A DNA stretch of 41,092 bases, taken from a virus. Shown here one piece after another: positions 5,705-31,583 of this stretch. A program made the translations under genes and the position numbers. How positions within the stretch are numbered: the stretch's first letter is position 1; the number at the start of each line of letters is the position of its first letter. The DNA is taken from positions 714-41,805 of IMG/VR virus record IMGVR_UViG_3300000116_000048. The stretch is one strand, 5' to 3'. The notes beneath the pieces are model-generated. The model ran no database searches, was not told where the DNA came from, and saw nothing but the letters and a program-made list of their open reading frames with translations.

Positions 5705-6754
5705 ATGGCTACCCTACAGGCAGCAGATATTGCTGATCTGATCACGACTACACAGCGTGATCTGGGCCGACTTCGCTGGACTGACCTCTCTTACGACTTG
5801 CAGGAATATGTGGCTCTGCCCATGATCCTTCAGCGTGAGAAGGTCTCGTACCAGTCAGGTCAGGCTCTTCAATGGAACGTGATGACCGGAACCAGCGGCG
5901 CAACCCGCGACACCGGGCTTTACGAAGTTGACAGTGTCAACGTCTCAGATGTGATGACCACGGCGACTGTTCCGTGGCGGCACATGACGACTAACTACGC
6001 CATCGAGCGTCGTGAAATCGCCATGAACCGTAGTCCAGCTCAGATCGTTGACTTGGTTCGCATCCGTCGTCATGACGCGATGGTTGACCTTGCGAAGCAT
6101 ATGGAATCACGCTTCTGGAGCGCACCGACCTCTTCGTCGGACAACCTCCAGATGTTCGGTGTTCCGCATTGGGTTTCGTGGGTCACTTCGACCGGCGCTT
6201 TTGTCGGTGGCAACCCCACTGGGTTCTCTGCTGGCGCAGGTGGAATCGACTCTGCTACGACTCCTAACTGGCAGAACTGGTCGGCTACCTACACCAACAT
6301 CACCAGTGTTGACCTTGTTCGTAAGTGGCGTAAGGCCGCAACCTTCACCAACTTCCGACCCCCTGTTGCGGGTGCTGAATACGGTGGCGGACGTAACAAC
6401 TACGGTTACTACACCAACTACAATGTGATTGGTCCTCTCGAAGAGGTTCTGGAATCACAGAATGACAACCTCGGTAATGACATTGCCTCCAAGGACGGAA
6501 AGCTCCTGTTCCGTCAGACTCCGGTCACTTGGGTTCCTGAGCTTGAAGCTCGGGGCGGCGATCCGATTTACGGCATCAACTGGTCGGTTCTCAAGCCCGG
6601 CTTCCTCGCAGGCGAGTACCTTCGTGAAGAAGGCCCGAACGCTGCTGCTAACCAGCACACCGTGTTCACCACTCACCTCGACCTCACAATGAACCTCCTT
6701 TGCCACAACCGTCGTGCAAACTTCGTGCTGGCTAAGAGTAACCCGCTCGTCTGA
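5705..6754 (+). CDS. Major capsid protein
   Basis: The 349-residue product is taken to be the HK97-fold coat protein from position (after scaffold), length, ribosome binding site strength and residue pattern. A helical N-terminal arm with 'LSYDLQEYVALPMILQREKV' leads into a mixed alpha/beta body. An aromatic Gly/Asn-rich segment (about 225-245, with GGGRNNYGYY) may be the protruding loop. The C-terminal part has the strand-rich HTVFTTHLDLTMNLLCHNRRANF, typical of the P-domain end that binds viral DNA/RNA-side contacts. Codon use is very even and GC-rich relative to neighbours, as in highly expressed phage genes. No N-terminal protease delta domain is evident, consistent with a separate scaffold. 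Confidence 0.88.
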   Translation: MATLQAADIADLITTTQRDLGRLRWTDLSYDLQEYVALPMILQREKVSYQSGQALQWNVMTGTSGATRDTGLYEVDSVNVSDVMTTATVPWRHMTTNYAIERREIAMNRSPAQIVDLVRIRRHDAMVDLAKHMESRFWSAPTSSSDNLQMFGVPHWVSWVTSTGAFVGGNPTGFSAGAGGIDSATTPNWQNWSATYTNITSVDLVRKWRKAATFTNFRPPVAGAEYGGGRNNYGYYTNYNVIGPLEEVLESQNDNLGNDIASKDGKLLFRQTPVTWVPELEARGGDPIYGINWSVLKPGFLAGEYLREEGPNAAANQHTVFTTHLDLTMNLLCHNRRANFVLAKSNPLV

Positions 6755-7520: not shown

Positions 7521-7766
7521 TTTGGGTTTGTATGTGACGTTGGCCTTCATCGGATCTACCGGAGGCGTTAGAGTTTCCATCTCTTCTGGACCAAAGAGAA
7601 TGTCATCTCTGTGTTCGTCAGATATTTCACACCAGGCAACTGCCATGGCATCAAGAACATCTACGTTTTTTACGTTGTATTCTTCAGCTACCTGAATCAC
7701 TAAGGCCATTGTGTTTTCACGAATTCTTACGCTGGCCGTTTCTGGTTTGCTTTGACCTTGGTTCAA
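7518..7766 (-). CDS. Small hypothetical protein, last gene of the late operon
   Basis: The 82-residue product is soluble, with a helical core (ENTMALVIQVAEEYNVKNVDVLDAMAVAW) split by charged residues, and an extended C-terminus rich in Pro. I do not recognise it. It begins at a TTG that overlaps the TGA of the giant gene upstream (TTGA), with GGAG about 9 bases before it. The first in-frame ATG would remove 19 residues. Its stop codon lies within the terminator of the opposing operon. Confidence 0.65.
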   Translation of the reverse strand: MNQGQSKPETASVRIRENTMALVIQVAEEYNVKNVDVLDAMAVAWCEISDEHRDDILFGPEEMETLTPPVDPMKANVTYKPK

Positions 7767-10700
7767 TTCATTCTCTCCGAAGCGAGTTGTGCTTTGACAC
7801 GCTTAGATGCGCCTTCGTATCGTCTGTCTCTAGCAGGCATGTTCTTGGCCTTCTGAATGTTCTTAGATCGCTTTTCAAGATCCTGCAACGTGTAAGACAT
7901 CAAGGGGTACGCGGCGTTGTGCTTGCGCGTTTCTTCCATTGCGCCCTTGAAGTTTCCTGATGTAAGCATGGCCGCTGCTTTCGACATCGAGCTATCGTTG
8001 ACTTCCTTCAGGGCCATGATTCTGTCAAATTCCATTGCCCACACGGTTTCATCAACCGTTCTGAAGCCACCAGCCAATTGCATCCAAGTGCCACGGCCTT
8101 TGTCTCTGTCGTATGCACGAACCCTACCCTGGTCATCGTAGTCAGTTCCTTCAAAACCAGACAGGTGTTCTACGTTCTTAGCCAGCCACTTGAACGCAGG
8201 ACCAGTGTCCTTCATAGCTCGATACGCTCTAGTTGCGTAACCAACGGGCTGGACTGTATCTGCCGTCATCGCGTTATACATGTCCTCAAAGAAGCCAAGT
8301 GACGGTCCTGTGAGCTGAGATTTAACTCTATCCGCCGCCGTTTTTCCGTATGGCTCTGCGAACAAAGACAGTGACCCAGAAACGTCTGCACCCATGATTG
8401 CAGGCAAACCAAACATCAATGCGTTTGCAGCCTCGTCTCCTAGGTTCTTCTGTAGTGTCTTCCTAGTCTTGTACAGCACGTTGTCTTTTCGTGATGACTC
8501 ATCACACAGTCCAACAAGCTCACATGCCCCTTGGAGCAAGAAGTATCCTGGCAAAACCGTGAACATCAGCCCCTTGAATCCGCCCACGATGGTGTTAATC
8601 AACAACCACTTTCCTGCACCTGTGTAGTTCTTCTGTTTCATTAGATTGATGCCAAAACCAATCATGTTGAATTGGAACCTTCGGTACTGAAGCAAGGAAC
8701 TAGCAATAGGGCCATTCAGAATTGGTGGCAGGTTTGACCTGGTGTACGCAAACTGGCTGCCGACGTACCCTTCAACTCTTGCATACTCTTGGGCTTCTGC
8801 CTTAGAAAGTCCCAGCTTGAGTCCGTGCATGTAGTAGGCCAGAGCTGAGAAGTTCATGTTTCTGACTTCAGATTGGGAGCTAATCTTGTTTCTCAAGATA
8901 TGCTTGTCCATCATCTGTTGTCCCTTGTTTACAAGGTCGATTGCCTTTGTTCCGAACTTACTCTCTGTGCCGTCCAAGTACATGCCACTTGTAACAGAGA
9001 TATGCCCGATTTCTTCTAGGATCTTCTTACCTTCCTCTGTGTTGTGCATAGCAGCAGCTTCACGGAAGGTCTTAAGTCCCACGACCGGCAATACAGTTTG
9101 CAATGGTTGGGTAGAGTTGACTACCCATTGTTTAGGTGTTTTGAGCTGACGCAAGTAGTTGAAACTACGAAGCGCGGCCAAAGTCCTTCTTGTAGGCATG
9201 TCTCCCATCATTCTTCCAACCACAGGCAGGCTAGTAAGAACGCCATCTACTACAACTTCAGATTTGGTAGGTCTATTGAAAAGAGTTCTATCTAGATGCT
9301 GTTCAAGATACTCTGCCCAGTAAGGGTCAGTTTTTCTCAACTGTTCAATAACAGGCTGCGCTTGCCTAATCATGAGTCCGCCAAACTTCCACCTATTGAA
9401 GTTCCTGCGTTGCATCTGCCAAACTCTTGGGAAGTCCATGCTGAAACCTTCAGCAGCTACATCGCCTCTTTGCATCATCGGCGCATAGAATGGCTTCGCG
9501 TTCTGCTTCAGCTTGACCACGCCACGGAGAGCGTCATTGATTTCTCTGCTTTCCATGTCAGAAGCCGACTTGATTTGTTTTCTAAGCTGGTTTCTTTGCC
9601 TTTGCGTCATGGTGGCCGACTCACCACTAGCATCAAAGTTGTTTGCTGGTTTAGCTTCGTAATTTGTAAACTCAGCACCTCGCTCTGAGTCCTTGAAGCT
9701 CTTCAGCTTTTCATATGCTTCAGCCTGGGTGTCTGCGTCACCAACAATGACATATGTGCCATCTTCTCTGAATGCCTTCAGCTTGTACTTCCCAAAGAAA
9801 GCGTGATGGAAGTGGCTGTATTGCCTGCCCCAATCAGACGGAACTCTTTGTGCAACCAGTTCTTCCACTAGCTCTTCTTTGCTAATGTATCGATTTTCAC
9901 TCGTGAAGATTTTTTTGCCGTCAATGGTGTCTACTTCGAGGTCTTCGTAAAGAGCTGGTCTTCCTTCTTCGCTTGTCAACGCAGCTTTCTTCAGCGAGTC
10001 AAACGAGTCTCTAGCCAGAACAGAGCGAACAAAACCGCGCTTCTCTTCAACGATTTCTTGCCTTTGTACCTCAGACTCTTGCCTGAAGTACAAGAGTGCG
10101 TCTTGGACTTCTTGTGGGAGGTCTTTGACTTTGGCAGACTTTCCGATTGTATCTGCTGGGTTTTCAAAGTATGTAACTTCTGTATCACCATCCAGCACTG
10201 TGTTTTCTTCTTTGAGTGGCACATATTGGTCTACCAACTGGGCAAACTTAAAGCCCTTGTTTCCTTTCCAATCGTCAGGCATTGCGTTGTACGCTTCAGA
10301 GTCCGCTGCGGCCTGGCGTTGAGTAAGGATTTCCATATCCATCGCTTTGGCAATAATGTTTCTTACAGCTTCTCTAACTGGGTTGCCGCTCTTTGTAGCC
10401 ATGACTGCGTAATGCAGAGGTGTAAGAAAAGGAGCAAGCAGCCTAGACACCCTTGGCCCCTTATCAGGGCCATCGTCTAAGAGGATGTCTTCATCCATGT
10501 CCTCATCAGCAGGCGGCAGAGCAAGAACTCTCCTACGCATGTCGTTCAACTTGCTCATCATGGAGAGCTGCTCTGGGTCAGCTTCTTCTTCAGATCTAGC
10601 CATGTCTGTATCTAGGCTAAACCTACCGCCTTCGTCAGTAACTGAGTTAAACACAGCTTGGGAAGTTGGGTCTAGTGCTTGGTCAATAGACGCACTGTTT

Positions 10701-13700
10701 GCGAGCAAGCCGTTCTCTTCAATTAGATCAACAAGCCTGTTCTTAGCATCTTCAGATGAAACAGCATCGTCTTCGTACCAAGGCGTGTTTTCTGCCCTAT
10801 TTGCAACTGCCCTGTCATTGACGTAGCCGTCAACAAAAACCATCTCACTGTTCTTGTCTGCGTGTTGAACCATACGACCAGGCAACATCATGCTTGGAAT
10901 CTGGCGACTTACTTGCCCCCATGTTCTCGCAGACATTTCGTAGACCTTGTTGTCGATCTCGTAAAAGATTTTGCCACCAGCCATGGTCATGCCGTAGGTG
11001 GGAGAGTCGAAATCCTTATCCTGCACCTTGCGCTGTGGGATTCTTGTGTCTTCATTAAGTTCAACACTTGCAATAATGTCACTTAGCCTGTTTTTGCTGA
11101 TTCCTCCATTATCCCTAATGGCCTGGGCAAACGCCTTGGCTTCTGTAAGGTTTAGGCCAAAGGCATCCGCAGCCATACCGGCAAACTTCTGTGGCGATCC
11201 ATGACCAGCCATAGACAACCCGGTAAACATCGACACCAGGTTATCTTTAGCCTTTTTGTATTCTTGCAACGTGTGCTTTGCTGTTCTGTTCATCAGTCCA
11301 GCAGGCTTAATCCCATTGCGAGTAACTGCGTTAGCTGCACCTGCCGTAAGCTGCCCAGCAAACTCGTTCGGGTCAAGGCTAAACCGACCCACATGACGAT
11401 AGTCACGAAGTTTTGCTGGGTTGCCTTCAGCAATGACGCGGTATGGCACTGATGTCCAATACTGTTGTGTAGCTGAGTCCTCTATATCAAAGATTTCAGA
11501 CTCAACTTGATCTGGGTCTTCAACAAGTTGTTGTTCAGAAATGGCATCAATGGCTTTTGTTAGCGTTGCCATTTTGCCGCGTGTCATGCCATGGAACTCT
11601 AGCCTATTACCTTCTATGCGAACATCGCCGTAAACTTCCATTGCGTATTGTTTAGGCAACTCTCGGCTGTTGTCTTGCAGAAGGTCAATTTCTCTCTGTC
11701 CGAACCCCTGTCTCTCTAACTCTGCGAGGAATGTTTCATCTAGTGTTGCACCCAGACTTACAACACCCATTAGCTCTGATGCGTTAATAACGCCTTCTTC
11801 AGAATCCTGTTCTAGTGCATACAGTCTATCTGACACTCGTGACATATCTATTGGTGAATTCTCAATCACCGTTTCAATGTCTTCCATTGCGTTTCGTGCA
11901 ATTTTGTCCAAGGCAAGCATGTCGTGGTTCATTGGCCCCACATCGCCATCTGCGTCAGTCACATTGCCATCACTGTCTGCGAAAAACTCACCACTCAAAC
12001 TCAACCTAGATGTGGGTTCGTTTGGTTTAGGAGTCCGTAGCTCTTCGTTTGTAGGAGCCTTTACGAATCCAAGCCCAGTTTCATCTGGCGCAGCGCGTCT
12101 ATTAGTACCGCTTTCGTCTAGGGCTTCCATGAACTCAGTCACGGACATATGTTCAGCACCACCTGGTCCTGACGAGGGATACTTAGTTTCGCGTTCAGCC
12201 TTGAGTGTGTCGAGAGCATCGCCAACAAGTGTTGCCAGTCTTTGTTTCTGCAACACATTCATATTGCCGTCTTCGGCTTTGATCATAAACGATTCTGGAA
12301 GTGCCAAAACTCCCTTGGAGAACTTCTTGCCATCCTTAGCTCGTTTGAATCCAAGGCGGCCCATAACTTTGGCAAATGCCCCAGCCATGCCTGTGAAGTC
12401 AGCATCTGACGAGTTTGTTTCGAGAACTTCAATCAGACCATCTTTCTCTGCAAGGACTTCAGCAACAATTTCAGCCATAAGTGATGGTGCTTCTTCCATC
12501 AGCTTCTTGTGGCTAATCTTGGCGTTTTTGTTCTTAGCGTATGCCTTGCTGTAGTTTGAGTTGTATTGCAGCAGTTTCTGGCGGATCAAAGAAGGGTCGT
12601 GTCTCACCAGATCCCGCACAAGCCTGTTCCACGCTCCAGGGTTTCTAATTTCGAGGTCATGAAGTGCCTCGTGGTAAAAAACCTTGATAAGAGCGTCATT
12701 CTCCGTCAGGGCGGAATTGATGGCAATTACACCGGGGATATTAGACTCGTGGAACCCACGGAACCCGCGTCGGACACCACGGTAATAGACCACCGTAATG
12801 CCATATTCCTTTGCCTTGTCTGAGACCTTCTTTTGAGCGTCTGTGAGGGGCTGTGAGCCGTCGTCTACGAAGACCTCCACATTACTGGTGTCTTCGCCTG
12901 CCTCCTCTAGCCGTTGCCTTAGAGACGATTCTAGGGCGTTTGACGAGACATTGGTTCTTTCAACGCTCTGGTTGGGGAAAGTAGCCGTTTCTTCAGCCAA
13001 TGTGGCTTCTTTGGCTGGCTGTGCCTGCGTAGACTCAGGAGTGCGGCGAACCTCCTGGTCTACCAGGTTATTCCATATTGCCTTGGCTTCGTCTATGTCT
13101 GACTTCGACGGCGGCGTGGGGCTTGCTTCAGCAAAGATTCCTGTGGCAAGCGGCCTGTCTTGGAGAAAGAACATCTGTGCCATGAGCTGGGCATCTCTGA
13201 TCTTACCGGATTGCATACCTCCGATAAGCACCGAGAGAATTCTTCTTGCCTCTTCTTCTCCGTAGATTTCGACAAGTCGGCTGACTGCTGCGTTGACGTT
13301 GGCTTGTTCATCTTGGGATTGCTCAAGTGCTTCACCTTCTCTAATTGTGTCTTCTTGAACCTGCTTGCGTGCTTCTGCGCGTTCAGTCTTGCCGTCATCA
13401 ACAATCTTGTCTTCTTTTGCTTCCTTTGCCTTCTTAGCTTCTTGCAGTTTGCCCCTGGTTTTAGCAACTTCATCTGGAGTTCCGCCTAGAAACGGCACTA
13501 CTGGCTTTCTTCCTACTTCGCCTCGCCTGCGAAGTTCAACAACTCTCTCTACAACTGCCTCTGCAACTACACCGTCAGGCAAAAGACCTTGTGATTGCAT
13601 ATAGGCTACTACGGCTTCTGGTGTAGTAGCCTCACTAGCCACTAGATCAGTACCAGCTATCCTATTTGCTTCAGAAATTGAATTGTCAATGTCTTGACGC

Positions 13701-15781
13701 TGTGATGTTCGTAGTTCGACTCCTTGTCTTTCTGGAGTACCACGCACCGTTTCAGGCGTGGCTTGCCTTGCGCGGTCGAGCTGCCCTTGCCTCTCAGACA
13801 ACGCCTTCTGCAACCTAGCCCTAGCCTGTTTTGAAGAACCAATCTTGCCTATGCCGTTTTCGCGCAAAATTTTGTTCAACTCACTTCTGCTAACACCTTC
13901 TCCAGTCGCGTCTAGCAGTGCAATTTCTGCTGCTAGTTCAGGGTGTTGGTTGATGAGTTCATCTATAGCTTGTTCAAACTGCTGATCTGTAGAGGACGAA
14001 GTAAGTGCGTTGGCAACCGCCTTTGCTCCTGACTTTCGCTTATTCGCAATTAGAGCCTCGCCGTTTTCTTTTCCTAGCATCAAAGCCACAAGCGTTGTGT
14101 TGTCGATGTTACCCGTGTCTCGACCTCGAATCTGAAGTTCAACAACTGCCATTAGTGGTGTAACACGGATTCTATCTCCGTCTTCACCGACGAAAACCTG
14201 CTCGTCGGCACCAAACTCTGATTCGATAGCTCTCCACAAATCCAAGTCTGACAATTTACCAAAGTCAGAGCGACGTTCTTCGACTGTAGCTCTTTGCTTA
14301 GATTCTTCTCTAGATTGCACTTCGGCTTCAAACAAAGACTTCTGAATGAAGTAAGCTCGTTTGTCGATAGCTTCCTGCTGCTCTGGCGACCTACTTTGTC
14401 CAGATGGTTGCATTCCCTTGATTACAACACCAGCGGGACCGCCTAGCAGCGCACCCGCAGCAGCAGCTCTGTACAGCTTGTACATGTAGCCTTCGTTGAG
14501 GAACCCAATCTGCTGAAGCCGTTCATCATCATCACGAATAGAAGCAATGCTTGCAATCGCTGCGTCAGTCAAAGCGGTTTCTGCCGCTTCTTGAAAACCT
14601 TCAGCTCCTGCACCCAGCATGAAGTTTCTCATTACTCTACCTGGCAAGGTAGTGGCAGCAAGGCCGCGAGCTGCTTTGCTGGTAAAGAAAAACCCACCAT
14701 CAATTTTAGATGTCAGAGCAGTTGATGCGCCAGCAGAAAGAGCTTCGCCGAGCATCACGGGGAACGCTTCAGTGGGGGACATTCCTCTGTTGACCACGTA
14801 CTCGTTGTAACTGTCTGAGTATTGCGTTCCGAATGTTTGTGCGCCAGAGAATCCAGCAAATGCTCTGCTCATTCTTTTGGCTGTTTGTTTTGCTGTGTAC
14901 TTAGCTGCTGAACCGGCTACGCCTCTAACAATAGCACTGCTGCCCCCTGTGGCAATTGCGAGGCCAATGTCCACGATAAATCTAGGGGAAGCCCTAAGTG
15001 CATCGATGACTGCGTTGTCAGGAAGTGGGCCATAGTCCATTCCTGTTTGTTGATCGATGTTGACTTGATAAGTTGCAATTTTTGCAGACTCAACCACCTG
15101 CATTCCGTAATCCATCATTGAAGAAGCAACAGAGTTTTCCCCGAAAACTTTTTCGCCAAATGTGCCTGCGGCTTGAATGTATCCGCCCACTTCTTCGCCT
15201 GTGCTATAAAAGCCCTGCAACAGTGCGCTGCCAACAATGTCCGCGTAACCGCGTTCAACTTCAGGTGCTTCTGGCGTTGGAGCCAGGCCCATAGCCTCTC
15301 TTTTCTTAGGGTCTGCAAAAGTTCCCATTCTCTTGTATGGGTCTCTGTTGTAATGCCTAGCAATTGCAGAAGTATATTCGCCATCAGTAAGAGTTCTGGG
15401 CTTAGGCTTCGACACACCCATGCGTTCTCTGAGCGCACTTCTCTGCACCATTTCTTGTGGCGCGATTGGCCGCATGGATTCTGTTTCAGCAGACAATCCA
15501 CGCGCAACCTGGTCTTCGTTTTCGTATAGACGGCCAAAGTCAGCAGACTTTTGTTCAAAATCTTGTTGTCTGAATTTAAACTCTGGGTCTAGAACCAAAT
15601 CGTCGTCAGGTGCATCCATGCCCTCGTTTGCAAGACGCATCGCAGCACTTCTAGCTTTGTCTTTTTCTGATTCGAGTTCTTGTGGCGTGGGCAATGTCCC
15701 GGCTACGATTCCTTTGTCCTCGTTTCCAAACTTTGTAGAAAGCATGTCGAGAATGTTGTCATCGTTATTGAAAGCGGTCAT
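7763..15781 (-). CDS. Giant internal virion (polyvalent-type) protein with metallopeptidase motif
   Basis: This 2672-residue protein is most likely packaged in the virion and injected with the DNA. Residues about 1-170 are charged. About 180-460 hold Gly/Ala-rich hydrophobic segments (such as DIGLAIATGGSSAIVRG and GALLGGPAGVV) that could insert in membranes. A zinc peptidase motif HEALH lies at 1037-1041 with AEIVAE at 1103-1108 as a candidate third ligand. RLSL/RFSL linkers occur at 1259, 1466 and 1720. The C-terminal third contains the aromatic-rich region I associate with large polyvalent phage proteins (FAYTRSNLPP, LLQYRRFQFN) and a hydrophobic stretch near 2385-2420. It ends the late operon with its upstream partner of 986 residues. 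The polyvalent label is from pattern memory; family domains should be checked by profile search. Confidence 0.85.
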   Translation of the reverse strand: MTAFNNDDNILDMLSTKFGNEDKGIVAGTLPTPQELESEKDKARSAAMRLANEGMDAPDDDLVLDPEFKFRQQDFEQKSADFGRLYENEDQVARGLSAETESMRPIAPQEMVQRSALRERMGVSKPKPRTLTDGEYTSAIARHYNRDPYKRMGTFADPKKREAMGLAPTPEAPEVERGYADIVGSALLQGFYSTGEEVGGYIQAAGTFGEKVFGENSVASSMMDYGMQVVESAKIATYQVNIDQQTGMDYGPLPDNAVIDALRASPRFIVDIGLAIATGGSSAIVRGVAGSAAKYTAKQTAKRMSRAFAGFSGAQTFGTQYSDSYNEYVVNRGMSPTEAFPVMLGEALSAGASTALTSKIDGGFFFTSKAARGLAATTLPGRVMRNFMLGAGAEGFQEAAETALTDAAIASIASIRDDDERLQQIGFLNEGYMYKLYRAAAAGALLGGPAGVVIKGMQPSGQSRSPEQQEAIDKRAYFIQKSLFEAEVQSREESKQRATVEERRSDFGKLSDLDLWRAIESEFGADEQVFVGEDGDRIRVTPLMAVVELQIRGRDTGNIDNTTLVALMLGKENGEALIANKRKSGAKAVANALTSSSTDQQFEQAIDELINQHPELAAEIALLDATGEGVSRSELNKILRENGIGKIGSSKQARARLQKALSERQGQLDRARQATPETVRGTPERQGVELRTSQRQDIDNSISEANRIAGTDLVASEATTPEAVVAYMQSQGLLPDGVVAEAVVERVVELRRRGEVGRKPVVPFLGGTPDEVAKTRGKLQEAKKAKEAKEDKIVDDGKTERAEARKQVQEDTIREGEALEQSQDEQANVNAAVSRLVEIYGEEEARRILSVLIGGMQSGKIRDAQLMAQMFFLQDRPLATGIFAEASPTPPSKSDIDEAKAIWNNLVDQEVRRTPESTQAQPAKEATLAEETATFPNQSVERTNVSSNALESSLRQRLEEAGEDTSNVEVFVDDGSQPLTDAQKKVSDKAKEYGITVVYYRGVRRGFRGFHESNIPGVIAINSALTENDALIKVFYHEALHDLEIRNPGAWNRLVRDLVRHDPSLIRQKLLQYNSNYSKAYAKNKNAKISHKKLMEEAPSLMAEIVAEVLAEKDGLIEVLETNSSDADFTGMAGAFAKVMGRLGFKRAKDGKKFSKGVLALPESFMIKAEDGNMNVLQKQRLATLVGDALDTLKAERETKYPSSGPGGAEHMSVTEFMEALDESGTNRRAAPDETGLGFVKAPTNEELRTPKPNEPTSRLSLSGEFFADSDGNVTDADGDVGPMNHDMLALDKIARNAMEDIETVIENSPIDMSRVSDRLYALEQDSEEGVINASELMGVVSLGATLDETFLAELERQGFGQREIDLLQDNSRELPKQYAMEVYGDVRIEGNRLEFHGMTRGKMATLTKAIDAISEQQLVEDPDQVESEIFDIEDSATQQYWTSVPYRVIAEGNPAKLRDYRHVGRFSLDPNEFAGQLTAGAANAVTRNGIKPAGLMNRTAKHTLQEYKKAKDNLVSMFTGLSMAGHGSPQKFAGMAADAFGLNLTEAKAFAQAIRDNGGISKNRLSDIIASVELNEDTRIPQRKVQDKDFDSPTYGMTMAGGKIFYEIDNKVYEMSARTWGQVSRQIPSMMLPGRMVQHADKNSEMVFVDGYVNDRAVANRAENTPWYEDDAVSSEDAKNRLVDLIEENGLLANSASIDQALDPTSQAVFNSVTDEGGRFSLDTDMARSEEEADPEQLSMMSKLNDMRRRVLALPPADEDMDEDILLDDGPDKGPRVSRLLAPFLTPLHYAVMATKSGNPVREAVRNIIAKAMDMEILTQRQAAADSEAYNAMPDDWKGNKGFKFAQLVDQYVPLKEENTVLDGDTEVTYFENPADTIGKSAKVKDLPQEVQDALLYFRQESEVQRQEIVEEKRGFVRSVLARDSFDSLKKAALTSEEGRPALYEDLEVDTIDGKKIFTSENRYISKEELVEELVAQRVPSDWGRQYSHFHHAFFGKYKLKAFREDGTYVIVGDADTQAEAYEKLKSFKDSERGAEFTNYEAKPANNFDASGESATMTQRQRNQLRKQIKSASDMESREINDALRGVVKLKQNAKPFYAPMMQRGDVAAEGFSMDFPRVWQMQRRNFNRWKFGGLMIRQAQPVIEQLRKTDPYWAEYLEQHLDRTLFNRPTKSEVVVDGVLTSLPVVGRMMGDMPTRRTLAALRSFNYLRQLKTPKQWVVNSTQPLQTVLPVVGLKTFREAAAMHNTEEGKKILEEIGHISVTSGMYLDGTESKFGTKAIDLVNKGQQMMDKHILRNKISSQSEVRNMNFSALAYYMHGLKLGLSKAEAQEYARVEGYVGSQFAYTRSNLPPILNGPIASSLLQYRRFQFNMIGFGINLMKQKNYTGAGKWLLINTIVGGFKGLMFTVLPGYFLLQGACELVGLCDESSRKDNVLYKTRKTLQKNLGDEAANALMFGLPAIMGADVSGSLSLFAEPYGKTAADRVKSQLTGPSLGFFEDMYNAMTADTVQPVGYATRAYRAMKDTGPAFKWLAKNVEHLSGFEGTDYDDQGRVRAYDRDKGRGTWMQLAGGFRTVDETVWAMEFDRIMALKEVNDSSMSKAAAMLTSGNFKGAMEETRKHNAAYPLMSYTLQDLEKRSKNIQKAKNMPARDRRYEGASKRVKAQLASERMN

Positions 15782-15798
15782 CGGTTGTCAATACCCTA

Positions 15799-18759
15799 TT
15801 ATTGGTTGTAAAGATCGGTTTCTGTCAAATATCCCAGTCGCCTGAGCATGTTCTTTGAGACTTCGGTCAATCGTGAAAGGCCAGCATTGTTGTTTGGGAA
15901 ATCATTAGGGAAAGCGTCTCTAATAACTTGGGCGACTTCAAACACAGCGGTATCGTATATCTTTCGGTTGCCTTGAGTTTCTTGCCCAGGCCTTCTAATA
16001 ATTTCCTCAGTAACGTCTTCAAGCCTCTGCTTATCAAGAACTACTTGCTTACCTTGGTAAAAGAAAGGCAATCCAAGAGCCGTGTTTACAACCTGTTCTA
16101 CTGAATCGATTTCTACGTTTCCATCAGGCCGCACTCGAACTGGTTGTGGGTTGAATACCCCAGGTGTTCGTTGCAAAGTGACCTCAGACCTGTTGCCAAA
16201 ATTACGAGGTTGCGTGTAGGCGTTTTTAACTGCTTCTTGTTGTGTTCGACCAGATACGTCGTTCAAAATACGCTGCTGCTCAGTCCTAGAAGCAATTGAT
16301 TCTCTATATATCTGATTCACACGGGGGCGTATGTATTCTTCTCTCAAAGAAGCAGCACTGGGTGGTGCGCCTGTACGGCGGTTTTTCCGGGTGTCTTGTC
16401 TGTCTAGTATTTCTCGTAGACGAGCTACCTGTGGGTCGTCAGATGGCTCTGCCATTTGCGGCAACTTGCCATCCTGAATATTAGACCTTTGCATGATTGC
16501 CAAAGAATCTTCATCTCCAACAATCTCTCTTTGCTCTAACCATGCAGCAAAACCTGGGTCTTTGTCCAGCACAGGAGAAACATTGGGGTCTACCTGTTCA
16601 CCTGTTTCTTCTAGGTAGCTCTTAGCAAGTCTTGTGTAATCTTCTCTTCTTTGGGAAAGACCAGATGCACCAGTTTGTTCAGACACAATAGTTTTGTATG
16701 CTGACTCAAAATCAGATTCTGCTTGCTCAATAGCTTGAATTTGCAAAGTTTCTTCATTTAGAGCGTCTGTGCCAAAATCTTTTCTGCCACCAGTCGCGGC
16801 GACGCGACGCTGATCTTCTTTAGGCTTCGGCTTAACAGGGTTTTGTACTTCTTCTAAGTTCCCAGAAGTCACATAAGGAACTCCAAGAGAACGAGCCAAT
16901 TCAACCTGTGACCTGTCATTCAACACGGCTACAGGTGTAACTGACCCTTTGTGTAGTATTGCAGGGAAAGCAACGCCCTGTGAAACAATTACAGGCATTC
17001 CTTCTGGTGTTTGTGTCAAAGAAAACGGTAACTCAAACTGTTCCATCCGGGAAATAATTTGCGGAATCTGTTGCGGTTGGATTTCTGCAATTGACTCTGG
17101 AAGTGTTCTTTGCCCTTGTGGTTGAGGGACTAGCTCGCCACTTCTAATTCGACCAGCTCTTTCGCGTGTGTTTTTTCGCGATTGAATTCCTTGCATGGCT
17201 CGTTGCATGTATTGATCATCAGAAAGAACGCGCGAAAAATCATTTCTTTCATCTTGCGCTCTGAGTTTTTGCGCCTCTGAAATAATTTGATCTAACTCTA
17301 ACTCATCTTCAGCACTACTCTTTCTAGACTTAGTAGCTTGTGCCTTAAAAACATCACCTTGGGTTTTAAGAACTCTTTTAGCAACGCCCCCATAATGACG
17401 ACGAGCTTGCTGCAAAGCTTTGTTGTATTGCGTGTCCCCACCAGGTCCAGAAGGGAAGTTGCTTCTGTCAAGATCGAGCGCAGCGTTGGCTTTATTAAGC
17501 TCTTCATACAGAGGGTTGTCCATGCCAGAACTAATTGCAATAGCCGCTAGACCGCTTACATCTTCCCTAAAACGCGGGCTTGCCATTGCAGCCTCGCCAT
17601 ACTCAGACCCACTCCTCTGTGCGTTATAAGCAGGCGTATAAGAACCAGGCGCGTTAGGATTTTCCGTTGCTCCAATTCGTGCGGTCTTACCGCTACCAGT
17701 TGGGTCTACTAAATTGTAAGAAGCACGACCTGTGTCACTGACTTGAACGTCCGGCGCAGCAGTTTCCGGTATGCCTTCTTGCCTTCTACGACGCGCTTCG
17801 TTGCGCTCGTTCATCCTACGGCGCGGTTCGCTAAGAAATTGTGTTTCTTGAACGGTGCCAGGCTCTAGCTCTTGCTGCGCATCAAGGTCTATTCCAGCAG
17901 CTCTAGCCTCAGTTCTTTGCCAGTGTTCCCAGTCATCTTCAGCAGCTCTACCATGAGTTCGCATGAAGTAATTATCATCTTCATAGTCAGCTCTGCTCTC
18001 AGTTCTGAGACGGTACTCCGCATCTTCAGCGTTTTCTGCTGGAGGACTGCCGGGTTGTATCCGGGCTTGTCCCTGATCTCTCAAACTTTGTTGCTGTAAT
18101 TCAACCTGTCGATCACGTTCTAGAAGTTCAGCTTCGAGTTGTTCAGGAGATTTTCTTACAGGAGTCTGTGTTGTTCCTTGCTCTTGACCGCCATCAAATA
18201 CGTTCTCCCCAAACTGCCCAGTAGAAAGTTGATCGTTGGCAATTATTGGGTCTACCCCGCCAGCACGATCTTGTTGCATCTGCCGAATAGAGTCCAGCCG
18301 TGTTTGAGACAAAGGCAGACCTGTATCAAGGTCTAGCCCTTGATCCAGTCTTCTGTGTTGTTCTGCTATTTGCTCGTCGCTTAAAGCGTATTGACCTGGC
18401 TGATATCCACTAATTGGTGTGGTTTGCTGCGCTCTTGCAAGTCTTTCTCTGTTACGTGCAAGGATAGGGTTGCCCATGTCCCCTGCTTCATTTAGAAAAT
18501 CAACAGCTTGTGCGCCAAGTCTTACACCAGGCATAAAATTAAACGTGTTAAATGCTTCTTGGCCTAGTTCGCCTGCGCTTTGTACAGACTGTGGGTCAAC
18601 ACCTACGTTTAAAATTCCACCTAACGGTGATTGAGCAGCAACTTCTGTGAGACCAGAACCAATATTGCTAAGGAGTTCCTTGCCACCTGGTGCTGCTCCA
18701 AGGCCGCGCATACTGCCGCGTTGGATTCTACGTTCTTCTTCTGGTGTGTACTGAGCCAT
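15799..18759 (-). CDS. Large internal virion protein candidate
   Basis: The 986-residue product is unusually rich in Gln, Arg and Glu and largely low-complexity. A Gly/Ala-containing N-terminal region (about 1-100) leads into Gln/Arg/Glu-rich helical sequence. A more globular island lies near 570-640 (PFSLTQTPEGMPVIVSQG, ILHKGSVTPVAVLNDRSQ), and a structured C-terminal part has LPFFYQGKQVVLD. I do not recognise a family. It lies 17 bases upstream of the 2672-residue giant, and the pair resembles the large internal proteins of podoviruses in size and order. No catalytic motif is apparent. An alternative is a tail-associated structural protein. Confidence 0.8.
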   Translation of the reverse strand: MAQYTPEEERRIQRGSMRGLGAAPGGKELLSNIGSGLTEVAAQSPLGGILNVGVDPQSVQSAGELGQEAFNTFNFMPGVRLGAQAVDFLNEAGDMGNPILARNRERLARAQQTTPISGYQPGQYALSDEQIAEQHRRLDQGLDLDTGLPLSQTRLDSIRQMQQDRAGGVDPIIANDQLSTGQFGENVFDGGQEQGTTQTPVRKSPEQLEAELLERDRQVELQQQSLRDQGQARIQPGSPPAENAEDAEYRLRTESRADYEDDNYFMRTHGRAAEDDWEHWQRTEARAAGIDLDAQQELEPGTVQETQFLSEPRRRMNERNEARRRRQEGIPETAAPDVQVSDTGRASYNLVDPTGSGKTARIGATENPNAPGSYTPAYNAQRSGSEYGEAAMASPRFREDVSGLAAIAISSGMDNPLYEELNKANAALDLDRSNFPSGPGGDTQYNKALQQARRHYGGVAKRVLKTQGDVFKAQATKSRKSSAEDELELDQIISEAQKLRAQDERNDFSRVLSDDQYMQRAMQGIQSRKNTRERAGRIRSGELVPQPQGQRTLPESIAEIQPQQIPQIISRMEQFELPFSLTQTPEGMPVIVSQGVAFPAILHKGSVTPVAVLNDRSQVELARSLGVPYVTSGNLEEVQNPVKPKPKEDQRRVAATGGRKDFGTDALNEETLQIQAIEQAESDFESAYKTIVSEQTGASGLSQRREDYTRLAKSYLEETGEQVDPNVSPVLDKDPGFAAWLEQREIVGDEDSLAIMQRSNIQDGKLPQMAEPSDDPQVARLREILDRQDTRKNRRTGAPPSAASLREEYIRPRVNQIYRESIASRTEQQRILNDVSGRTQQEAVKNAYTQPRNFGNRSEVTLQRTPGVFNPQPVRVRPDGNVEIDSVEQVVNTALGLPFFYQGKQVVLDKQRLEDVTEEIIRRPGQETQGNRKIYDTAVFEVAQVIRDAFPNDFPNNNAGLSRLTEVSKNMLRRLGYLTETDLYNQ

Positions 18760-29000: not shown

Positions 29001-29170
29001 TATTCGTCCTCCTCATCATCATCGTCATCTACGTCAATGATCATTAGACGGTCCATGGCGATGTCGAACAACACCCCAGAGACCTGCCATTTGTCTAGTT
29101 CAAATTCAGTCATCCAGTAGTTTACATGCTTCTGGAGTTCCATTTTCATCTTTTCGGCGGGGCTAATCAC
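29000..29170 (-). CDS. 56-residue acidic small protein
   Basis: The frame starts at a GTG at 29170, which overlaps the TGA of the metallophosphoesterase gene (GTGA), and ends at TAA 29000. It encodes a helical segment (VNYWMTEFELDKWQVSGVLF) and a C-terminal tail of almost pure Asp/Glu (DVDDDDDEEDE). The acidic tail beside several very basic small proteins suggests charge pairing, but there is no direct evidence. An internal ATG (29149) is an alternative start. Confidence 0.6.
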   Translation of the reverse strand: MISPAEKMKMELQKHVNYWMTEFELDKWQVSGVLFDIAMDRLMIIDVDDDDDEEDE

Positions 29171-29946
29171 TGTGGCATCCTTATCAATTCAGCGTCCCAG
29201 CATTTACCGTTGAGCCTGGATGGCCTATCCCACACGCATTCTACAACGATAATCGAAGCGCCCCACATGCTTGTGTCTTTTCTTTTTGCGTAGTTTGGCT
29301 TCAGGGGGCCACATGTGCCTACATTCGCATACCAGAATGGGAGTGGGACTTTCTTTGTCCTCATGGCCTGGGTTGGAGGAACTGGCCTGTGAGTATGACC
29401 TCTGACTGTTAAGCCAAAAGGAATCCATCCAGCGCACTGCATCATCTGTAAACCCTCAAGCTCGTCACTAGCCAAACCAGCGTCAAAGCCGTGATAAAAC
29501 AAGCATTGTCCTACTTTGTAAATGCCTTTTCGTGATTTTTCATACGGAACCCAATGCCATTGCTCGAACTCATTGCCAAATTCAGGGTGATTGCGCCAAT
29601 CTACTAGGTTTCTTAAAGACCTGGGTATTCGGCGTGGGTCGGGAGCAAGGATGTTGTCATCGTGGTTGCCTGTGCAAATCCACCTGTTACAGCCGCTTGG
29701 CAAGACATCGCGTATAGATTTAAGTAGGTTCGCACCATGTTCATACTCATCATCAAGTGTGTGTGTGTCCTCGTTTGGGTGAACAGATGCCGCACTAGAC
29801 TCGAAAACATCCCCGAGATGACCAAAATGAGTCAAGTCAGGGATGTTGGCAAGTGTGTCAAGGAGCCACGAATGGGTCTCTGGTGGCGTGAACGGAGAAT
29901 GAGTGCAAGATATTGCAGCTATTTTTGCTGTCCTGCGGTCTTTCAT
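29167..29946 (-). CDS. Metallophosphoesterase (calcineurin-like)
   Basis: The 259-residue product has the ordered motifs of the calcineurin-like fold: SCTHSP at 13-18 in motif I place, GHLGDVFES with G45-D46, GNHDD (93-97), YHGF with H152, and GHTHRP with H184 and H186. In standard members motif I is D-x-H; here the aspartate is Cys (C14-T-H16), so one metal ligand is unusual. The substrate is unknown; candidates include nucleotides and cyclic nucleotides. Its stop overlaps the next small gene (GTGA). It follows two small membrane-protein genes. Confidence 0.88.
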   Translation of the reverse strand: MKDRRTAKIAAISCTHSPFTPPETHSWLLDTLANIPDLTHFGHLGDVFESSAASVHPNEDTHTLDDEYEHGANLLKSIRDVLPSGCNRWICTGNHDDNILAPDPRRIPRSLRNLVDWRNHPEFGNEFEQWHWVPYEKSRKGIYKVGQCLFYHGFDAGLASDELEGLQMMQCAGWIPFGLTVRGHTHRPVPPTQAMRTKKVPLPFWYANVGTCGPLKPNYAKRKDTSMWGASIIVVECVWDRPSRLNGKCWDAELIRMPQ

Positions 29947-30611: not shown

Positions 30612-30878
30612 TTAGCGAGTTTGTGCTTCGAGTCGCTCTAGTCTGTCTTTGAGATCAGCAATGTTTTCATTGTGCTTGGAGTCGTTTGCCTCGGACAAGA
30701 CCTGTGACTTCACAAGGTCTTGGGATATCGAACTCAGTTGAGTGATCTGCATACCGTGGAAGGTAATCTCTTGATCACGCCTACCCATTGTCAGAAACAC
30801 TCCTGCGGCTGCGGCTGTAATGACTATTGTTTGAACTGCCGCCCACATGTTCTGGGAATTACTCTTGCCATGATCCAT
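30612..30878 (-). CDS. Single-span membrane protein with coiled coil
   Basis: The 88-residue product has a hydrophobic segment (MWAAVQTIVITAAAAGVF, about 11-29) and a C-terminal coiled-coil region (ENIADLKDRLERLEAQ). This layout resembles the small envelope proteins placed beside holins in many phages. I chose the ATG at 30878. The frame stays open upstream, giving possible starts at 30962 or 30971 (MFLMSFSDKE...), but neither has a good ribosome binding site. It is the first gene after the structured non-coding block. Confidence 0.62.
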   Translation of the reverse strand: MDHGKSNSQNMWAAVQTIVITAAAAGVFLTMGRRDQEITFHGMQITQLSSISQDLVKSQVLSEANDSKHNENIADLKDRLERLEAQTR

Positions 30879-31007
30879 TACTTTTTCGCCACTCTGATTG
30901 GTTACGGTTTCAGTGAAGACGCACCGACCCCTAGCACTATGTTCCTTATCGGAAAAACTCATAAGAAACATTACCCATTATGGACTAGCGGAGAAGGCAG
31001 TGTGTCG

Positions 31008-31134
31008 GTACGCCGACCTTCCCAATGGGTCACAATCGGCGTACAGAGCCAGCCGCTGGCTGCTTGAATGCCCCTAAAGACTAGCCCCATCAAGCAGGGG
31101 GTGGCAACCTGGCCTATGTCGCGTCTGACGCGAC
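31008..31134 (-). ncRNA. Candidate structured RNA between early and late operons
   Basis: Four hairpins occur in a row in the 125-base block. They are 31118-31124/31128-31134 (7 bp, 3-base loop), 31060-31067/31090-31097 (8 bp, CTGCTTGA against TCAAGCAG), 31047-31052/31056-31061 (6 bp, 3-base loop) and 31008-31016/31036-31044 (9 bp, 19-base loop). The GGGG runs in the loop of the second can pair with CCCC just 5' of it, which would form a pseudoknot. No good coding frame crosses the block. I tested it against hammerhead, twister and tRNA cores and found no match. The direction is inferred from the flanking - strand genes. It may be a leader of the late operon or an independent RNA. Confidence 0.5.
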
Positions 31135-31138
31135 TATG

Positions 31139-31172
31139 AAAACCACCGCTTACCCTCTCGGATAAGCGATGG
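31139..31172 (-). terminator. Terminator of the early operon
   Basis: On the - strand bases 31172-31160 pair with 31155-31143 in a 13-position stem (two G-T pairs) closed by a GAGA tetraloop, followed by TTTT. It lies 18 bases downstream of the stop codon of the RusA-like gene. The GNRA loop is unusual for a simple terminator and may be a tertiary contact of the adjoining structured block. Confidence 0.72.
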
Positions 31173-31190
31173 CCTGCAAACTGGAAAAAC

Positions 31191-31583
31191 TCATTGACTC
31201 GTTTCCACTGTCATGTGAACCCGTGTAATTTTATCTTCTGACTTCCTTTGTGTGACGCTCAAATTCTTGATGTGGGCCTCAGTGTCATCAGCGATCAGGC
31301 ACAGTGCTTCCTTCTTGGACCTAGGGCTTGGCTCTCTGATCACATCTAGCAGCAACTTGCAGCCTCCGTACAAGTTGTCAGGGTCCATGGCTCGTTTGCG
31401 GTAGCCGTACTCTCTGACAATCGTTATGTCTACAGGGCAAGTGAAGGGGACAACCGTTTCACCGTTAATACACATTAAATTGAACAGTTTATTGTGTTCC
31501 TTCATCCGAGTACGAAAGTGCATCCGCATCATCTTGTTTGGGCTAATCAAGTCATACTCTGGCAATGTGCATTTCCAAATCAT
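31191..31583 (-). CDS. rusA-like: RusA-family Holliday junction resolvase
   Basis: RusA-type enzymes cleave four-way DNA junctions and are common at the end of phage recombination operons. The 130-residue product carries the family pattern D67-P-D69-N (MDPDNLYGGCKLLLD, with D80) and a later acidic pair D99-D100 in LIADDTEAHI, followed by a beta-strand end. The length is near the usual 120-130. It overlaps the primase gene by four bases (ATGA) and is the last gene before the terminator. It likely resolves intermediates made by the RecT and Cas4-like proteins of the same operon. Confidence 0.85.
   Translation of the reverse strand: MIWKCTLPEYDLISPNKMMRMHFRTRMKEHNKLFNLMCINGETVVPFTCPVDITIVREYGYRKRAMDPDNLYGGCKLLLDVIREPSPRSKKEALCLIADDTEAHIKNLSVTQRKSEDKITRVHMTVETSQ

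Follow-up and report, generated by a model that had tools for sequence, protein, structure and literature searches.

GOLLD and ROOL are classes of phage RNA that assemble into homo-oligomeric nanocages, the put RNA of HK022 binds RNA polymerase and suppresses termination, and the lambda 6S RNA with the pR' leader region is defined by a promoter, a pause and a Q-binding site. GOLLD combines one conserved with one variable region (PMC12286853), and many of its members exceed 800 nt; HK022 put RNA is ~70 nt long, with two stem-loops, and lies downstream of early promoters (PMC9378689), and RNA anti-CRISPRs (Racrs) are non-coding RNAs that occur in phages as solitary units (PMC10651486).

The putative RNA element considered here lies in the window, i.e. 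the whole 41.1-kb stretch of DNA analysed out of a 41.8-kb record of an uncultured phage. Like GOLLD and ROOL, it would be an elaborate phage-encoded RNA of complex secondary structure and function not known, and like GOLLD it places a conserved region beside a variable one; however, at ~240-300 nt it matches no Rfam family and does not lie near tRNA genes. Like HK022 put, it is a structured RNA of phages, lies close to where an operon starts and would act without encoding protein, but it is several-fold larger, with at least seven covarying helices across ~240 nt, and follows the early operon. Whereas put precedes the genes under its control, such a position is found here in most carriers, and one carrier (G018) has convergent genes after the RNA. 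The element resembles Racrs as a solitary phage-encoded non-coding RNA, yet Racrs mimic CRISPR repeats whereas the present RNA is long and multi-helix; the window has no above-threshold match to any CRISPR repeat family of Rfam. Lambda 6S and the pR' leader likewise occupy a non-coding stretch between early genes and lysis or late genes, a rule of position that fails for the present RNA in G018; on brief inspection none of the three signals that define the lambda leader was recognised here.

The Rfam search suggested by the initial annotation was carried out: none of the 4227 families of Rfam 15, the GOLLD, ROOL and self-cleaving ribozyme models included, matched the window at the gathering score, and nothing came near that score at E <= 10 for the element alone or two relatives, or at E <= 5 for six relatives. 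ARAGORN found 0 tRNA or tmRNA genes in the window; the annotation had not been able to match the block to hammerhead, twister, tRNA or tmRNA cores.

Genomic setting and adjoining signals

The replication and recombination block on the minus strand (RecT-like, helicase, primase-like and RusA-like genes) terminates at 31191, and ~310 bases separate the RusA-like gene from that of a small membrane protein; comparison with relatives gives no ORF common to them in this gap. The gene-free structured block that the initial annotation had placed at 30975-31190 is real beyond chance, but its constituent parts differ from those listed and its limits shift: the RNA reaches from ~31117 to 30879 on the minus strand, beyond 30975, and leaves a terminator and a palindrome outside (Table 1). 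For the membrane-protein gene, the start codon is placed at 30876-30878 because homologues begin at the same methionine, with MDHGKS or MDQKDQGK; the start at 30971 in the ORF list, which is unconserved and lies inside the RNA element, was rejected.

Table 1. Coordinates of the RNA element, its parts and its neighbours in the window
Feature	Position	Strand	Description
RusA-like gene	31191-31583	-	borders the gap on one side
Intrinsic terminator of the early (RusA/primase/helicase) operon	31143-31172	-	13-position GNRA stem, then TTTT
17-bp palindrome GTCGCGTCNGACGCGAC	31118-31134		arms invariant in 4 relatives
Type A form of the structured RNA	30879-31117 (approximate)	-	starts at ATAGG and reaches the start codon of the membrane-protein gene
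Helix H1	31103-31114	-	GGC/GCC, 6-nt loop; 100% paired; 2 of 3 pairs change on both sides
Pseudoknot helix S1	31085-31100	-	CCCN (31097-31100) with N'GGG (31085-31088)
Helix S2	31061-31096	-	UGCUUGA (31090-31096) with UCAAGCA (31061-31067); encloses S3
Hairpin S3	31070-31081	-	GUCU-UUAG-GGGC; one pair U-G, C-G or U-A; 100% paired
Hairpin S4	31047-31060	-	GCCAG-CGG-CUGGC; U-A in place of C-G and of A-U in relatives
Core	30973-31030	-	Pc and Pb helices, apical hairpin, two conserved 3' bulges
Core helix Pc	31024-31030 with 30973-30979	-	
Core helix Pb	31017-31023 with 30991-30997	-	
Apical hairpin of core	31005-31016	-	UCGG-CGUA-CCGA
Conserved 3' bulges of core	30998-31004; 30980-30990	-	CACACUG; CGCUAGUCCAU
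Helix Px	30940-30970	-	UGUUUCUUAU (30961-30970) with AUAAGGAACA (30940-30949)
Conserved motif m2	30918-30932	-	AGGGGUCGGURCGUC; 80-135 nt after core hairpin
Small membrane-protein gene	30612-30878	-	borders the gap on the other side; start codon corrected

All five stems that had been listed for the block are present in the sequence; covariation supports the 8-bp stem, the 6-bp stem and the pseudoknot. The 13-position stem with a GAGA (GNRA) loop exists, but it is the intrinsic terminator of the early operon, a GC-rich hairpin with T-runs at the operon end, and falls outside the conserved RNA. Terminator hairpins with a T-run occupy the equivalent place in L002, L004, L019, L023 and L050, and likewise in the siblings L026-L028, which are without the RNA. 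In these siblings a strong intrinsic terminator (L026:3306-3345, L027:745-785, L028:3733-3770) directly adjoins the membrane-protein start codon, and one may ask how expression of the gene is achieved. No promoter or 3' terminator belonging to the RNA itself was recognised.

The 7-bp stem, too, exists, as the palindrome GTCGCGTCNGACGCGAC, but outside the conserved RNA. The centre base of the palindrome is A, T, C or G among the four relatives with invariant arms, and in the elements of L019 and L023 it is absent, with unrelated hairpins in its place. Similar sequences stand elsewhere in these two records: a 19-bp version, TGTCGCGTCNGACGCGACA, at L023:140-158 and 6685-6703, and the similar TGTCGCGCCAGCGCGACA at L019:6662-6679. 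The palindrome probably represents a site on the DNA or a spacer hairpin and not a part of the core RNA, because it is replaced in L019 and L023 and has two further copies elsewhere in L023, and its recurrence at different sites of related phages suggests an operator or a mobile repeat. An N4-like hairpin promoter, considered in view of giant ORFs and of this hairpin of 7 bp and a 3-nt loop, was rejected: any of the four bases can occupy the loop centre, and no match was obtained for the giant proteins.

Architecture and covariation of the element

The best supported parts, namely the two core helices, helix Px and the motif m2, had been absent from the initial listing. In the core, Pc and Pb constitute a 14-bp helix with a continuous 5' side and a 3' side carrying two conserved bulges, the second with the consensus CGYYAGUCCRU; the core hairpin is closed by GUCG/CGAC, its loop starts with GCG, and its cap in L050 and L053 is the GNRA loop GCGA. 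Across 10 distinct core sequences and 18 tested pairs, every cell pairs (177/177) and 12 pairs are changed on both sides, giving a covariation score of 0.706 against 0.258 +/- 0.034 after shuffling, a level reached by 0/500 shuffles; slid versions of the core pair in only 43-51% of cells. The helices change while the unpaired motifs are near-invariant, and all carriers tested have both motifs, L050 and L053 included in the case of m2.

Two architectures surround this core. Type A, represented by the window, L002-L004, L006, L019 and L023, was aligned over seven relatives with the core included: 90.9% of the cells of 50 tested pairs are paired, 19 pairs are changed on both sides and 0/500 shuffles reach the observed covariation. 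Helix H1 occurs as GGC/GCC, GAC/GUC or GGU/ACC, and the variable pair of the pseudoknot helix S1 as C-G, U-A, U-G or A-U, with full pairing in all seven sequences. S2 is swapped wholesale, to GCUAAAC/GUUUAGU in L019 and to GUUCACC/GGUGAUC, with one U.U mismatch, in L004, and one of its pairs appears among the relatives as A-U, U-A and G-C. In L004, L019 and L023 the sequence of Px is replaced and its pairing retained, while UUUUUCCGAUA (30947-30957), which covers the Px loop and runs into the beginning of the 3' arm, is invariant in the seven sequences.

Type B (L020, L021, L022, L024, L025 and L051) has the core and m2 in common with type A but differs in its outer helices, the helix sequences being fully replaced between the two forms. 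Its outer domain, aligned over four sequences, has 99.1% of the cells of 53 pairs paired and 15 double-changed pairs, which 0/500 shuffles equal. It includes an H-type pseudoknot in which AGGCA/UGCCU is crossed by CGUGCG/CGCACG and the loop GGGUGAAA is invariant; m2, here AGGGGUCGGUCUGUC, is the 3' strand of a GNRA hairpin. No terminator separates the RusA-like gene from the RNA in this form. An origin from RNase P or tmRNA, considered on account of the type B sequences AGGGTGAAA and ATTCGACGGG, was rejected, as no covariance model gave a hit.

Thus the comparison with relatives that the initial annotation had named as its own test was run, and compensating changes are present. The 8-bp stem and its CCCC/GGGG pseudoknot both covary, as does the 6-bp stem (S4), whereas in the 9-bp stem (GTACGCCGA/TCGGCGTAC) no pair is changed on both sides and its formation clashes with the better supported core; this stem was rejected. 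Neither a shuffle (0/500) nor a slid control attains the observed covariation in the core, type A or type B alignments; shuffling leaves relatedness in place, and the slid controls, which retain kinship, still fall far below the real structure.

On the minus strand, single-strand folding is better than in 100/100 shuffles (z = -3.99), against z = -3.13 for the plus strand; the folding energy of one type B relative is not unusual (z = -1.41). G-U pairs make up 6 of the 177 core cells, with 0 non-pairs, and 13 of 182 cells in the other type A helices, with one mismatch. To judge from these pairs, the folded strand is the minus strand, in the sense of the operons, because on the plus strand each would be an A.C opposition. 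Taken as a whole, the comparative evidence makes it highly probable that the element is a conserved structured RNA.

Distribution among viral records

Scans of viral contigs for proteins and DNA patterns yielded 16 carrier records (the window, L002, L003, L004, L006, L007, L019-L025, L050, L051 and L053) with only 12 distinct cores, about half of them closely related. A model of the core made from 11 sequences detects a single copy in each carrier. In two of them, G018 (L050) and G020 (L053), the model matches weakly (E = 0.005 and 0.01), so that membership rests mainly on the two sequence motifs, which are correctly spaced. The patterns used found no carrier among isolate phages, plasmids or GTDB genomes; mycobacteriophage DNA matches, which comprised the core motif only and lay within a coding gene, were taken as chance.

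The element follows the RusA-like gene in many genomes, with a co-directional late operon downstream in most carriers. L026-L028 keep the RusA-like and membrane-protein genes with only a terminator in between, and both motifs are absent from the whole records G010 and G012; these nearest siblings lacking the RNA have the flanks seen in carriers but are fragments that do not include the terminase region. In G018 the RNA stands, after a RusA-like gene and a terminator, at the end of a plus-strand operon, and a convergent operon on the other strand, which includes a giant ORF, follows. In G020 both motifs occur on a short contig whose terminase and portal are different ones and on which no RusA-like gene was recognised. 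A packaging RNA tied to the terminase of the carrier phages is unsupported, since the motifs also occur beside this different terminase. The RNA thus behaves, by its distribution, as an accessory gene untied to the downstream late operon, because siblings with matching flanks lack it, convergent genes follow it in G018, and in G020 it accompanies a different terminase. The large terminase subunit on the G020 contig (L053:2206-4170, minus strand) carries an N-terminally fused Mrr-type restriction endonuclease domain (PF04471 + PF03237 + PF17289).

Possible roles of the RNA

The suggestion of the initial annotation that the block could be a new phage RNA agrees with the compensating changes in relatives and with the lack of an Rfam family match. 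With about an even chance of being right, we propose an unnamed class of structured non-coding RNA that constitutes an accessory gene of uncultured tailed phages and acts mainly as a free RNA. Such an RNA would be produced around the switch from early to late expression and work as a free molecule, alone or with protein. Its centre comprises the helix, the two conserved 3' bulges, the capped hairpin and m2, and its outer domains are exchangeable and include an H-type pseudoknot in both main forms. The invariant bulges, the apical loop and m2 may then together represent one binding or active centre on a scaffold of covarying helices. Action only in cis on late genes appears less likely. More speculatively, we consider a new class of small RNA machine (a ribozyme, the core of an RNP or a decoy of a host factor) that passes as an accessory gene from one phage to another, unrelated one, with a single conserved centre and pseudoknotted outer domains that can be exchanged; this extension is tentative.

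A cis-acting leader of the late operon, whether put-like and making RNA polymerase ignore terminators or controlling translation of the first late gene, is a somewhat unlikely but serious alternative. In the window and in most relatives the RNA stops where the first late gene has its start codon, the type A RNA comes after the early terminator, pseudoknots and strong conservation fit a contact with RNA polymerase, and type B, with its direct continuity from the RusA-like gene, suits a cis role equally. Nevertheless, such a leader, which had also been envisaged in the initial annotation, is weakened by siblings (L026-L028) that have an identical late operon start and keep the late genes with only the terminator there, and, as a general role, by G018, where no co-directional gene follows; its put-like variant must further accommodate 240 nt and many helices against ~70 nt and two stem-loops (PMC9378689). 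The constant position directly after the RusA-like gene, wherever carriers bear one, would accord with a 3'-end module of the early RusA/primase/helicase mRNA, i.e. a processing, stability or exonuclease-blocking structure (a processing site was among the possibilities named in the initial annotation), as would the missing terminator in type B and the operon end in G018. The intrinsic terminator between gene and RNA in type A and G018, and the short G020 contig without a recognised RusA-like gene, speak against this role, as does the rarity with which mRNA 3'-end modules keep so much unpaired sequence conserved, and we regard it as improbable.

Covariation alone cannot separate RNA from single-stranded DNA, and the site adjoins replication genes, so that a replication origin or packaging signal formed by single-stranded DNA was also weighed; the GC skew has one and the same sign on both sides of the site and instead turns near 7 kb, G-U pairs and GNRA caps suit RNA, and the siblings replicate without the element, which leaves this reading very improbable. 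Least credible of all is an ordinary terminator with chance hairpins kept merely by close kinship: the GNRA stem is indeed a terminator, and the folding energy of the type B relative mentioned above is unremarkable, but for the core this explanation is already refuted by the covariation test (0/500 shuffles), and in three alignments the shuffled and slid controls remain below the observed covariation.

A large structured RNA whose unpaired centre is conserved usually has a specific task, and to our knowledge few such RNAs are known from phages. The defined core of the present RNA, supported by covariation, its two architectures and the existence of natural genomes with and without it make its function approachable by synthesis, probing and deletion, and it would supply a new RNA family model for detection in other viromes.

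Several other genes of these phages merit mention. A metallophosphoesterase-like gene (PHROG 221; window 29167-29946) is conserved more widely than any other gene of the phage group and, at 54-98% identity across 32 viral loci, a good group marker. Two giant minus-strand ORFs of 2672 and 986 aa (window 7763-18759) have no Pfam or PHROG match, and the counterpart frame in L050, of 2643 aa, holds a possible metallopeptidase motif (HETMH). Finally, a small late gene (L028:4722-4952, L003:2247-2462, L006:3119-3334) has a start that resembles, by eye only, a Flp-type pilin.
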